Source: Myxococcota bacterium (GTDB lineage Bacteria; Myxococcota_A; UBA9160; UBA4427). Taken from it: 36,155 nt of DNA. Shown one piece after another: positions 32,094 through 36,155 of this stretch. Each line of letters begins with the position of its first letter. Within the stretch, counting starts at the first letter, position 1. The notes under the pieces are model-generated. The model saw nothing but the letters and a program-made list of their open reading frames with translations, did no database searches and was not told the DNA's origin. The position numbers and the translations under genes were made by a program. The DNA is taken from contig JAPYTP010000001.1 in assembly GCA_029941885.1 (NCBI GenBank), positions 83,118 to 119,272 of the forward strand. The letters run 5' to 3'.

Positions 32094-32567
32094 TCAGCCG
32101 GCGCCGGTTCCGGGAACAGCCGCCGGATTGCCGGGCGCATCGATGAGCTCGATGCGCATGCCGTCCGGGTCGAGTACGAACAACGCCCGCGTGTCGCCAT
32201 CGGGGAGCTTCAAGCGGCTGTCTTCGCGGATGCTGCCACCCGCGGCTTCGAGGCGCGTCTGGAATGCCGCCATGTCGGTCACCCGAAACGATAGATGCGT
32301 GAGACCCAGCTCGTTGAGTGGCCGAGCCACGCCCGACCCCGTGTGCCCGGGAGATGCGTAGTAGAGCAATTCGATCCGCCAGCCGTCGCGCTCGAGGTAG
32401 ACGGTCTGCAGCTCGGCGTTGGCGATTTCGATGAGGCGGCTGGTCATCTCGGCGTCGGGAACCAGTCGGCCCACTTCCACGAACCCGAACAGATCGCGAT
32501 AGAAGGCCACCGAGCGCTCCAGGTCCGAGACACAGATCCCCAGATGGGTGAGAAGTTGAACGGTCAC
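32094..32567 (-). CDS. VOC-family (glyoxalase I-like) protein
   Basis: A 157-aa vicinal-oxygen-chelate protein with two beta-alpha-beta-beta-beta modules. Likely metal ligands sit at H8, E66, H91 and E140, the same His-Glu-His-Glu order as glyoxalase I. Start GTG 32567 is preceded by AAGGAG at 7-nt spacing, and the upstream in-frame ATG at 32618 adds a basic stretch without homology. Family activities include isomerases of glutathione adducts, epimerases and dioxygenases. The position after a CMD/AhpD-like gene and before an FAD oxidoreductase suggests a shared catabolic or detoxifying route, but no specific reaction can be named. Confidence 0.86.
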   Translation of the reverse strand: MTVQLLTHLGICVSDLERSVAFYRDLFGFVEVGRLVPDAEMTSRLIEIANAELQTVYLERDGWRIELLYYASPGHTGSGVARPLNELGLTHLSFRVTDMAAFQTRLEAAGGSIREDSRLKLPDGDTRALFVLDPDGMRIELIDAPGNPAAVPGTGAG

Positions 32568-32690
32568 GGATTGTCTCCTTCGCTTCGAAGACTGCGAGGC
32601 GCTGTCGGATCCGGTCATCGAATGCCGTCATTGGCCCGAGCCTCGGGTCCGAGTGGGTTCGGCTCGCTCCCAGACACCGCACCGGTGCCG

Positions 32691-33194
32691 CTAGTTGTTG
32701 GGTTCCTCGAGGTCGAGTCGTAGCGGACAGGAGACCGCGACATCCATCACCATGGTAATTCGGCCCATCATCAGCCAGTTGCCCACACAGATGGAGATTT
32801 CGAGGATCTCCTCATCCGAAAAGTGCTCGCGCAGCCGTTCGAAGAACGCGTCGTCGAGCGTCTTGTGGTCGGTCGCGAATTTCTCGGCGTACTCGACGGC
32901 GATGCGCTCCGCTTCGGTGTAGCCGGGATAGGTTCGCCATTCCGAGACGTTCTGGTAGAGCTCCTCGTTGAGCTCGAGCGGCGCCAACTGCGCCGCACGG
33001 GTGTCGAGTCAGACATGGCATTCGTTGATCTGGGCGATTCGCATCCGCATCAATTCACGCAGCCGGACCGGAAGCTGACTCTTTTCGTAAATAGCGAAGG
33101 ACAGTGCAGCCGCCGGAGCGCTCACGTGAGGCGCGAGTTCGAAGAGCCTCTGGGTTTCCTCCGTGTCACCGGATGCCAGCTGGATGCGCGCCAT
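32691..33194 (-). CDS. Carboxymuconolactone decarboxylase/AhpD-family protein with in-frame UGA (candidate CxxU selenoprotein)
   Basis: Read through one UGA, this is a 167-aa CMD-family protein. Start ATG 33194 has GAGGAG at 6-nt spacing. The first part, with LPVRLRELMRMRIAQINECHV (41-61), matches the helix before the family's CxxC redox motif. The codon expected to encode the second cysteine is UGA (codon 62), giving C59-x-x-U62. The same frame continues as LDTRAAQL and a normal C-terminal half (FATDHKTLDDAFFERLREHFSDEEI region) to 32691 with no other defect. The downstream half has no credible start of its own. A SECIS-like hairpin follows the UGA. Selenocysteine in AhpD-like proteins is known from environmental bacteria. 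Alternatives are a nonsense mutation (TGC/TGT to TGA) or a base-calling error. Confidence 0.72.
32973..33008 (-). promoter_or_regulatory. SECIS-like stem-loop immediately after the in-frame UGA
   Basis: On the minus strand the 36 nt after UGA read, in order: CUCGA, a 7-nt unpaired CACCCGU, GCGGCGC, loop AGUUG, GCGCCGC, UCGAG. The two 7-base arms pair perfectly, and so do the two 5-base outer arms. The upper stem begins 12 nt and the loop 19 nt after the UGA, within the range known for bacterial SECIS elements, and the loop has G at its second position as expected. The element lies within the coding sequence. Confidence 0.55.
33009..33011 (-). other. In-frame UGA at the second Cys of the CxxC motif (candidate recoding site)
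   Basis: The codon is UGA in a reading frame that is otherwise open from 33194 to 32691. It follows GAA-TGC-CAT-GTC (E-C-H-V), so the motif is C-x-x-stop/U. Only this position interrupts the gene. Confidence 0.95.
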
Positions 33195-33302
33195 CGGGTT
33201 CTCCTCGTTCCTGTGATTGCGTGGCAAGCGTAGCGAAAGGACCAAACGCCCGGAATCGAGCGTTTTGAGCGATCCCCAGGGTATTAGTTCGCTCTCGAGA
33301 TC

Positions 33303-33680
33303 TCAGCCATGAGGGATCTCGTCGAGCTCCCACTTTCCCTCCATGGCCATCGCCGGGAGCCACGTTTCGACCAGCCGCCCGGCCTCGATCCGAAACGTCT
33401 GGACCCAGTCCCAGTGCATCTCGCCATTGATCTTCCAGGTTCCGATCGAGGTTACGAAGTCACCCTCCGCCATCAGGAAATATTTGAAGTCGGAGATCTC
33501 CCACTGACCTGCGACCGGTAGCAGTTCGTCGCGGTATTCCTCCGCGGTGACGATCCGCGTCCCGCGCACGTCGTGTCGTGTGTAGTTCGGCCCCGCGAGC
33601 GCCGGGATCAGCGCGAAATCGAGGTTCGCCCACATCTCATCGTACCAGCGACGCAAGAGCGCCTTGTTGTCCTCTTCCAT
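33303..33680 (-). CDS. SnoaL-like polyketide cyclase family protein
   Basis: A 125-aa NTF2-fold protein: NKALLRRWYDEMWANLDFALI (5-25) is the typical SnoaL entry helix, followed by YTRHDVRG, a mid-region EISDFKYFLMAEGDFV, and WVQTFRIEAGRLVETWLP near the end with the conserved Glu-x-Trp. ATG 33680 is used, but a GTG at 33686 two codons earlier has GGGAG at 9-nt spacing and may be the real start. It lies 29 bp downstream of the sulfotransferase and 108 bp upstream of the CMD-family gene, in the same transcript direction. Members with this pattern catalyse aldol condensations or hydrolyses, or only bind ligands. Confidence 0.85.
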   Translation of the reverse strand: MEEDNKALLRRWYDEMWANLDFALIPALAGPNYTRHDVRGTRIVTAEEYRDELLPVAGQWEISDFKYFLMAEGDFVTSIGTWKINGEMHWDWVQTFRIEAGRLVETWLPAMAMEGKWELDEIPHG

Positions 33681-34974: not shown

Positions 34975-36155
34975 TCAGCCAGCTCCGCCCTTCGCGAACA
35001 CCTCTTCCGTCGGCTCGATCATTCGCTCGTAGGTCGCCTGAATGACATCCGGCCCGATGTCGAAGACGACCTTGGCGCCCTCGGGCCCGACCGGATCTTC
35101 CTGCATGCAATCCGGCATGACGTCGTCGGCGGCTGTCCAACCCGCGCCCTTGTTGAAGTTCCACTCGTCCTGGAGGCATTGCCACGTCATGTCGAGGAAG
35201 GTCTCGCGCGAGATTTCCTCTCCAAAGAAGGCCGAATAGAACTCGCGGAGCGTTTCCATGTTGACCATCAGGAACATGCAGAATCCAGAGGAATCGATGG
35301 CGGCGTTGATATGCTGCTGCTCCTGGGAGAGGCGAGCCATCTGATCCGGGGTCGCTGCCGGATTCACGACCAGGCCCGCCGTATGATCAGCGCCCATTGC
35401 GCTCGTCACGTAGGTGACACCCGTTGCCTTGAGCGGCCGCGGGTCCCAGGCCGGGATGGCCTGGCCATGGACGGTCGGGATCCGTTTGTGGCCGGTCGCC
35501 TTGCCCGTTGCGTCGGCCCCGTGGCCGATCATGTCGGCGGCATCGCTTCCCTCGGCGACCTCGGCGATGAGCCTTTTCATGCCTTCGCTATCCCCCCACT
35601 CCAAGCCACCGGAATCCATCAGGATGCCGAGCGCGGCGCCGGTCTCGATCGTGTCGAGCCCGACCTCGTCACAGAGTCGGTCGAGTTCCGCAACCTTGTC
35701 CCAGGTGTCGACCGCGCAGTTGGCGCCCAACAGCGTAATCGTTTCGAACTCCAGAGCGGACGTTTTGTAGTTGCCATCAGCGTCGTGGACAATGTTGGAG
35801 CACGAAACGATGCATCCGGTCAGGCAGTTGTGCATGCCGCCGCCGCGTTCCTCGAAGCTCGCGACAATGCCGGTTCCCGTGAGTGTTGCCGCGTCGGGAG
35901 ACTGACCGTCGATGCGATTCTTGTAGGGGAAGGTGTGGAGCATCTGCGCCAGATCGACCGATGGGCTCGTGCCATATTGCATCGGCTGGGGGCCATCGAG
36001 GTACGTCTTGGACAGGCCCTTGCTGAGCTTCATGAAGGCCTTCTTGTCCGCGCCGTGTCGCACCCCGGACTTGCCCGCGTCGACGGCGACGTATTTGAGA
36101 CCCTTGGATCCCATGACCGCACCGAGGCCACCACGGGCGGCGTGTCGCGCCGGAC
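34975..36155 (-). CDS. Aldehyde ferredoxin oxidoreductase (partial, 5' end beyond the window)
   Basis: The reading frame runs without a stop through the right edge, so only the C-terminal 392 or so residues are present. The first residues visible, RGGLGAVMGSKGLK, are the family's pterin-binding block near residue 190-200 of complete AORs. A cysteine group HNCLTGCIVSC (C-x3-C-x3-C) and a later SSGFC supply the [4Fe-4S] ligands, and GLDTIETGAALGILMD is the conserved helix of domain 3. AORs use a tungsten or molybdenum bis-pterin cofactor to interconvert aldehydes and acids with ferredoxin. The cysteine spacing differs by one residue from the C-x2-C-x3-C I know for Pyrococcus AOR. It heads the visible operon. 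Confidence 0.9.
   Translation of the reverse strand, partial: PARHAARGGLGAVMGSKGLKYVAVDAGKSGVRHGADKKAFMKLSKGLSKTYLDGPQPMQYGTSPSVDLAQMLHTFPYKNRIDGQSPDAATLTGTGIVASFEERGGGMHNCLTGCIVSCSNIVHDADGNYKTSALEFETITLLGANCAVDTWDKVAELDRLCDEVGLDTIETGAALGILMDSGGLEWGDSEGMKRLIAEVAEGSDAADMIGHGADATGKATGHKRIPTVHGQAIPAWDPRPLKATGVTYVTSAMGADHTAGLVVNPAATPDQMARLSQEQQHINAAIDSSGFCMFLMVNMETLREFYSAFFGEEISRETFLDMTWQCLQDEWNFNKGAGWTAADDVMPDCMQEDPVGPEGAKVVFDIGPDVIQATYERMIEPTEEVFAKGGAG

Follow-up and report, generated by a model that had tools for sequence, protein, structure and literature searches.

CxxU selenoproteins of the CMD/AhpD-like kind were reported from the Sargasso Sea in 2005 (PMC1088965), an AhpD-like CxxU selenoprotein named 'AhpD-like 2' (pfam02627) was described from the GOS data in 2008 (PMC2398784), and reviews of 2022 and 2026 list such proteins (PMC9312934, PMC13188914), the former with a table row on COG2128 (YciW) CxxU. 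The original prediction for the locus analysed here stated that AhpD-like selenoproteins are known from environmental sequence, and the relevant passages of PMC1088965, PMC2398784 and PMC13188914 indeed present them as an established kind. Since CMD CxxU selenoproteins have been in print since 2005, the gene adds a member to a kind that is not new. For the main text of the deep-Sep paper (PMC12013277), we found no mention of AhpD or CMD. Two characterized proteins bear on function: PA0269, for which PMC3141380 describes a proton relay of Glu36, Cys48, Tyr50, Cys51 and His55 and weak peroxidase activity, and Bmp8, given in PMC7918430 as a CMD homologue with dehalogenating activity.

The candidate gene (Table 1) lies in what we call the window, the whole stretch of 36,155 nucleotides that was analysed, from a draft Myxococcota genome. 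Judged from its sequence and that of its relatives, we believe it to be a functional selenoprotein gene in which the UGA inserts selenocysteine, with a probability of about 0.95.

Table 1. Coordinates of the predicted gene, its features and its neighbours in the window
Feature	Position	Strand	Remark
CMD/AhpD-like selenoprotein CDS (predicted)	32691..33194	-	167 aa + TAG, one UGA read as Sec
Putative Sec-UGA, codon 62, second position of CxxU	33009..33011	-	TGA in 7/7 orthologues, window included; TGC/TGT in more distant homologues
Cys59 codon, first position of CxxU	33018..33020	-	Cys in 17/17 Sec and 14/14 Cys rows of alignment A2
Glu47 codon	33054..33056	-	place of AhpD Glu118 / PA0269 Glu36, 15 residues before second Cys
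Arg66 codon	32997..32999	-	place of AhpD His137 / PA0269 His55
AGGAG ribosome-binding site	33201..33205	-	6 nt before ATG at 33194
SECIS-like hairpin	32978..32996	-	7-bp stem, loop AGUUG, 19 nt from UGA to loop
SnoaL-like protein, upstream neighbour (context)	33303..33680	-	26.5 bits, just below Pfam cut-off 27
Glyoxalase/VOC protein, downstream neighbour (context)	32094..32618	-	Pfam

Reading frame and selenocysteine machinery

A 168-codon frame with UGA as its sole interruption and the motif C59-H-V-U62 had been predicted; the coordinates given for it are exact, and the strand, which was left unstated, is minus. The single in-frame stop is the TGA at 33011-33009, and the frame closes with the TAG at 32693-32691. 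A plus-strand reading of 32691-33194 was rejected, as it holds a TAG and yields no CMD protein. The two halves do form one CMD domain, as had been proposed: the Pfam CMD match (PF02627; 35.5 bits against a gathering cut-off of 23) covers residues 28-104 and crosses the UGA. Likewise, the first half has the good ribosome-binding site claimed for it, and inspection by eye found none before the in-frame TTG at 32987, in line with the claim that the second half has no such site of its own. When the window was scanned mechanically for C..U or U..C flanked on either side by 25 or more open codons, 16 cases came up, of which this one alone was taken further; the motif by itself is thus weak evidence, and the candidate stands above chance because TGA is kept at codon 62 in all seven orthologues, the window included.

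An antisense frame of 136 codons (32823-33233, plus strand) lies over the gene, and automatic callers might prefer it. Related antisense frames occur in three orthologues according to a crude all-against-all comparison of long frames, and we take this conserved-looking frame for a shadow of the conserved coding strand. Standard callers would either split the gene at the UGA or miss it for the antisense frame, which makes its recognition useful for annotation.

The draft genome (6.65 Mb in 500 contigs; 92.44% complete, 6.19% contaminated) encodes SelA (528.8 bits), SelB (304.7 bits) and SelD (264.6 bits), all above curated cut-offs, and the tRNA-Sec model gives a match of 67.4 bits, also above its cut-off, at a gene that ARAGORN calls tRNA-SeC(tca), with anticodon TCA. 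A search for selA, selB, selC and selD had been proposed as a check, and all four are present. Among 14 control genomes, the same models exceeded their cut-offs in one (selA), two (selB), two (selD) and five (tRNA-Sec), and a second match above the tRNA-Sec cut-off in the genome under study is a tRNA-Ser by ARAGORN. Because the tRNA-Sec model passes 5 of 14 controls and a tRNA-Ser, the ARAGORN call is what counts for this gene. The sel genes sit on contigs other than that of the candidate; selA is above cut-off in 84 of the 90 genomes of the class, which makes contamination improbable as their source.

Conservation across the UGA and the SECIS-like hairpin

When the 90 genomes of the class were searched at E<=1e-28, five had a match, the gene's own genome included; the other four (of 89) belong to three other genera and are 69-73% identical. 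A search of the order (79 genomes) returned three of these five, again with its own, and a sample of the phylum (377 genomes) contained no further orthologue at E<=1e-26. Relatives at ~50% identity were present on two near-copy contigs labelled Actinomycetota and Candidatus Microthrix (L020 and L021). The contig scan relied on six exact peptide patterns; its reach is limited to close relatives, and Cys orthologues of 40-60% identity could have gone unseen. The original prediction asked whether other genomes keep the UGA: all six relatives of 50-73% identity (L052, L081, L082, L083, L020 and L021) have TGA at codon 62. It also asked whether relatives carry Cys codons there, and 25 of the 65 best loci that cover the codon, more distant homologues, have TGC or TGT. 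The remainder comprise 32 loci with TGA and eight with Val, in which the partner Cys is replaced by Ser; the table was drawn from the 68 best loci of the searches, L049 and L050 being without coverage and L093 without a row.

Selection appears to act on both sides of the UGA. In six comparisons among the window, L052, L082 and L083, pN/pS is 0.17-0.38 before the UGA and 0.31-0.54 after it; the calculation was run on six of the seven orthologues, leaving out L081, and comparisons with L020 and L021 were dropped owing to saturated synonymous sites. With pN still lower than pS past the UGA, the protein remains under selection in its downstream half, and the decay of this half that would have spoken against the prediction is not seen. 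The higher pN/pS after the UGA accompanies a lower pS there, which would in part be expected from a conserved hairpin.

That hairpin, counted from the U of the UGA, pairs columns 16-22 with columns 28-34. The bSECIS limits in section 5 of PMC13188914 are a loop of 3-9 nt, a stem of 4-16 bp, a G in the first two loop positions, a spacing of 16-37 nt and an MFE <= -7.5, and the hairpin falls within them with its 5-nt loop, 7-bp stem, G in the first two loop positions and 19-nt spacing. The 42 nt from the UGA fold with an MFE of -19.3 kcal/mol, only moderately more stable than shuffled sequences (z -1.89; 10 of 200 shuffles fold as well). Across the seven orthologues, 89.8% of stem cells are paired, compared with 20-55% for slid versions of the register, and the covariation score is 0.558 versus a shuffled mean of 0.248, a value reached by none of 500 shuffles. 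Three pairs are changed on both sides (compensatory), but 102 of 500 shuffles have at least as many, and 400 of 500 reach the observed number of pair types; two of these three pairs differ only in the near copies L020 and L021, so that the covariation signal rests on few events. Columns 17/33 are unpaired in three of the seven rows and columns 19/31 in two, and RNAalifold, unprompted, recovers five of the seven pairs. An Rfam search of 32500-33400 gave no match at E<=1.

The hairpin count was widened, in a register fixed by codons and not fitted to structure, to the window, its six orthologues and 23 loci from a second family of Sec proteins in the order, with the motif CDTULFARYA (hereafter the CDTU family), excluding L044, L076 and L091 as other subfamilies. 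In the CDTU family the same register is 87.6% paired, although slid by +2 it is still 70.2% paired, and the hairpin forms in 13 of 23 single 42-nt folds. On the Cys side, 23 of the 25 Cys loci were counted (22 distinct; L047 and L048 are without the searched motif), and the same register is 33.8% paired across the 22 distinct sequences, inside their slid-register range of 23-46%. Of the seven hairpin pairs, three are left in L053, a Cys form, and two to four in three Cys forms from plasmid records.

These results also bear on readings in which the gene would not encode a selenoprotein. A pseudogene or a sequencing error, with the TGA a true stop or a miscalled TGC/TGT, is suggested by the occurrence of a single TGA, one base away from TGC/TGT, in a metagenome-type draft; a base-call error is very unlikely, however, given that six other assemblies show TGA at this codon too, and with pN below pS downstream and a conserved hairpin we regard this explanation as highly improbable. 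We give just as little credence to the UGA being a stop in a split protein, or one that leaves a 61-residue peptide only. The TTG at 32987 could indeed start a second half (a 98-aa ORF), but it has no apparent ribosome-binding site, the break would fall within the two-helix redox motif, and distant homologues have a Cys codon at this place in one continuous frame. Conserved read-through alone is silent on the residue inserted, and UGA might be read genome-wide as another amino acid such as Trp or Cys, with no selenoprotein at all. However, TGA ends four of the five Pfam-matched neighbouring frames checked (AOR, amine oxidoreductase, VOC and amidohydrolase), and the frames of orthologues L052, L082 and L083 themselves terminate at TGA, which argues that UGA is not generally reassigned; the UGA moreover occupies the position of the homologues' catalytic Cys in a genome with a full Sec system, leaving a reassigned code barely credible.

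Predicted fold, active site and possible role

The AlphaFold2 model, built on 34 aligned sequences, is helical throughout (pLDDT 86.3, pTM 0.81), its C-terminal tail being poor from residue 156 onwards. Its best PDB matches in Foldseek are Atu0492 (2gmy) and the AhpD-like PA0269 (2ijc, 2o4d and 7xw1), with TM scores of 0.71-0.75 by query, followed at lower rank by other peroxidase-related proteins and the debrominase Bmp8, and the sequence search agrees. By spacing, the counterparts of the PA0269 relay are Glu47, Cys59, Val61, Sec62 and Arg66; the Glu-Cys-x-x-Cys-His relay of AhpD-like proteins is thus represented by Glu47, Cys59 and Sec62, with Arg66 in place of the His.

In alignment A2, 16 of 17 Sec rows carry Arg66, as do 2 of 14 Cys rows, 8 of these 14 having His, and three Cys relatives from plasmid records also combine Arg at 66 with Cys at codon 62. 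Arg66 as a hallmark of Sec is therefore ruled out: as the nearest Cys relatives carry Arg too, the residue is the mark of a wider clade, not of selenocysteine. The proposal that Arg in place of the AhpD His sets this protein apart as a distinct subgroup is right as to the subgroup, but the Arg belongs to the wider clade, Cys forms included. A selenol of low pKa would lessen the need for a His relay and would fit Arg66, although the existence of Cys forms with Arg disfavours this as the cause.

With codon 62 read as selenocysteine, SelB, guided by the hairpin that starts 12 nt past the UGA, would deliver Sec-tRNA(Sec) at this codon, and translation would proceed through it to the TAG. The product would be an all-helical protein of the AhpD/CMD fold with the redox pair C59-x-x-U62. 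In M. tuberculosis AhpD, the counterpart of Sec62 is Cys133, the attacking residue of that protein; here the U62 selenolate would most likely attack a peroxide, a disulfide or another oxidised substrate. A selenenylsulfide with C59 would then form, C59 acting as the resolving residue, and a cellular thiol system could reset the pair; attacking residue, substrate and reductant are all assigned here by inference. For its function, we lean towards a role as a selenol/thiol peroxidase or disulfide oxidoreductase.

A different function, fully compatible with the selenoprotein reading, would be that of a dehalogenase or another catabolic enzyme of the CMD fold. Bmp8 occurs among both the sequence and the fold matches, Arg66 replaces the AhpD His, and the genes in the vicinity appear catabolic (SnoaL-like, glyoxalase, amine oxidoreductase and amidohydrolase), with a P450 and an SDR beside L020 and an NTF2-like protein and an SDR beside the Novosphingobium Cys relative. 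Against this, PA0269-type proteins match better than Bmp8, and when 12 window proteins were compared with the six orthologue loci (tblastn, E<=1e-6), the only match was at the gene itself. The catabolic setting suggested by the same-strand neighbours (SnoaL-like, VOC, amine oxidoreductase and amidohydrolase) is a weak indication because no such neighbour was found beside orthologues. In the all-against-all comparison of long frames, neighbours were shared between L020 and L021 only, which are near copies of one region, apart from a general SDR protein in L086 that is 20-30% similar to the SDRs of L020 and L021; frame picking was poor, with 6 of 10 picked frames lacking a Pfam match, and a shared neighbour could have escaped. 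Altogether we consider a dehalogenase or other catabolic function unlikely. Further along the window, an aldehyde ferredoxin oxidoreductase is represented by its C-terminal part (34975-36114, minus strand; AFOR_C, 183.8 bits); the contig ends 41 bases away and probably cuts the gene.

More doubtful still is a broader idea built on Arg66, namely that the clade carrying it (the window family, the CDTU family and Streptomyces-type Cys forms) might be a distinct group of CMD-fold enzymes that rely on Arg instead of His to set up their redox centre. The reaction catalysed may then differ from peroxide reduction (reductive dehalogenation, for instance, or a catabolic step), and both in the lineage of the window and in some Actinobacteria the enzyme may have become a selenoenzyme without a remaining Cys form.

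Relatives and comparison with known families

The highest-scoring Cys relatives found, at 35-38% identity, are three CMD proteins from records filed as plasmids, which belong to Streptomyces (WP_266619777.1), Nonomuraea and Novosphingobium aromaticivorans; 3 of the 153 matching records were examined. Of the 35 sequences in one tree, 31 come from the 65 loci, the others being the window and these three plasmid-record proteins; there the window falls in an all-Sec clade of five (95/98), and the Sec/Cys label needs four changes, three of them forced by well-supported branches. A tree of 61 rows, which excludes five near-identical Cys rows, recovers the same all-Sec clade at 100/100 and again four changes for Sec; given the long branches, we are unsure of the deeper branching order in both trees.

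Several other CMD relatives have TGA at the second Cys position. The CDTU family has two copies in the window's genome, L089 (G000:C428) and L090 (G000:C19), among 23 fetched loci in the order, and L053 is a Cys member of this family from the window's own genus. The same genome holds a fourth, more distant CMD-type candidate selenoprotein with C-H-Y-U (L091, G000:C208), while C-P-F-U occurs in another genome of the order (L076, genome G055) and C-D-Y-U on a Chloroflexi contig (L044). Among viral contigs, no relative was found. Three short unannotated records filed as phage (OR845538.1, OR851745.1 and OR850051.1; 1.5-2.9 kb) encode CMD proteins 26-30% identical to ours and may, as a guess, be bacterial fragments, and PHROGs has one matching family (29.7 bits), its function not annotated.

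The window's genome has no fewer than three further CxxU-bearing CMD genes (L089, L090 and L091), in a class with near-universal selA. L053 against its Sec sisters, and the Streptomyces-type forms against the window family, are natural Sec/Cys pairs that allow testing, in one small protein, why Sec is kept or lost.

Measured against existing models, the window protein matches five NCBIfam models at E<=0.1, in every case with a score under the cut-off. The best is NF053654 (GroundWater_YciW, YciW-related (seleno)protein) with 67.8 bits, far below its cut-off of 310, followed by TIGR01926 (36.1 versus 81.8), TIGR00778 (20.4 versus 27.8) and NF041238 (14.3 versus 175); NF053654 scores 58.2 bits on orthologue L052 and 66.1 on L020. 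These scores suggest that the subfamily is uncovered by those models, and the name NF053654 occurs in none of the papers listed by a literature search.

Compared with described proteins, PA0269 and Atu0492, which are AhpD-like with CxxC, have the fold and the order of active-site residues in common with the window protein; they carry Cys where it would have Sec, and His55 of PA0269 is Arg66 here. The CMD proteins of Streptomyces, Nonomuraea and Novosphingobium share the Arg at 66 but have CxxC instead of CxxU. Closer in motif is the CDTU paralogue family of the same order, which is 32-40% identical and has CxxU, Arg at +4 and a hairpin in the same register. The environmental CMD/AhpD-like CxxU selenoproteins, likened here by description, combine a CMD domain with CxxU as the window gene does, and a predicted SECIS is printed for the AhpD-like group.
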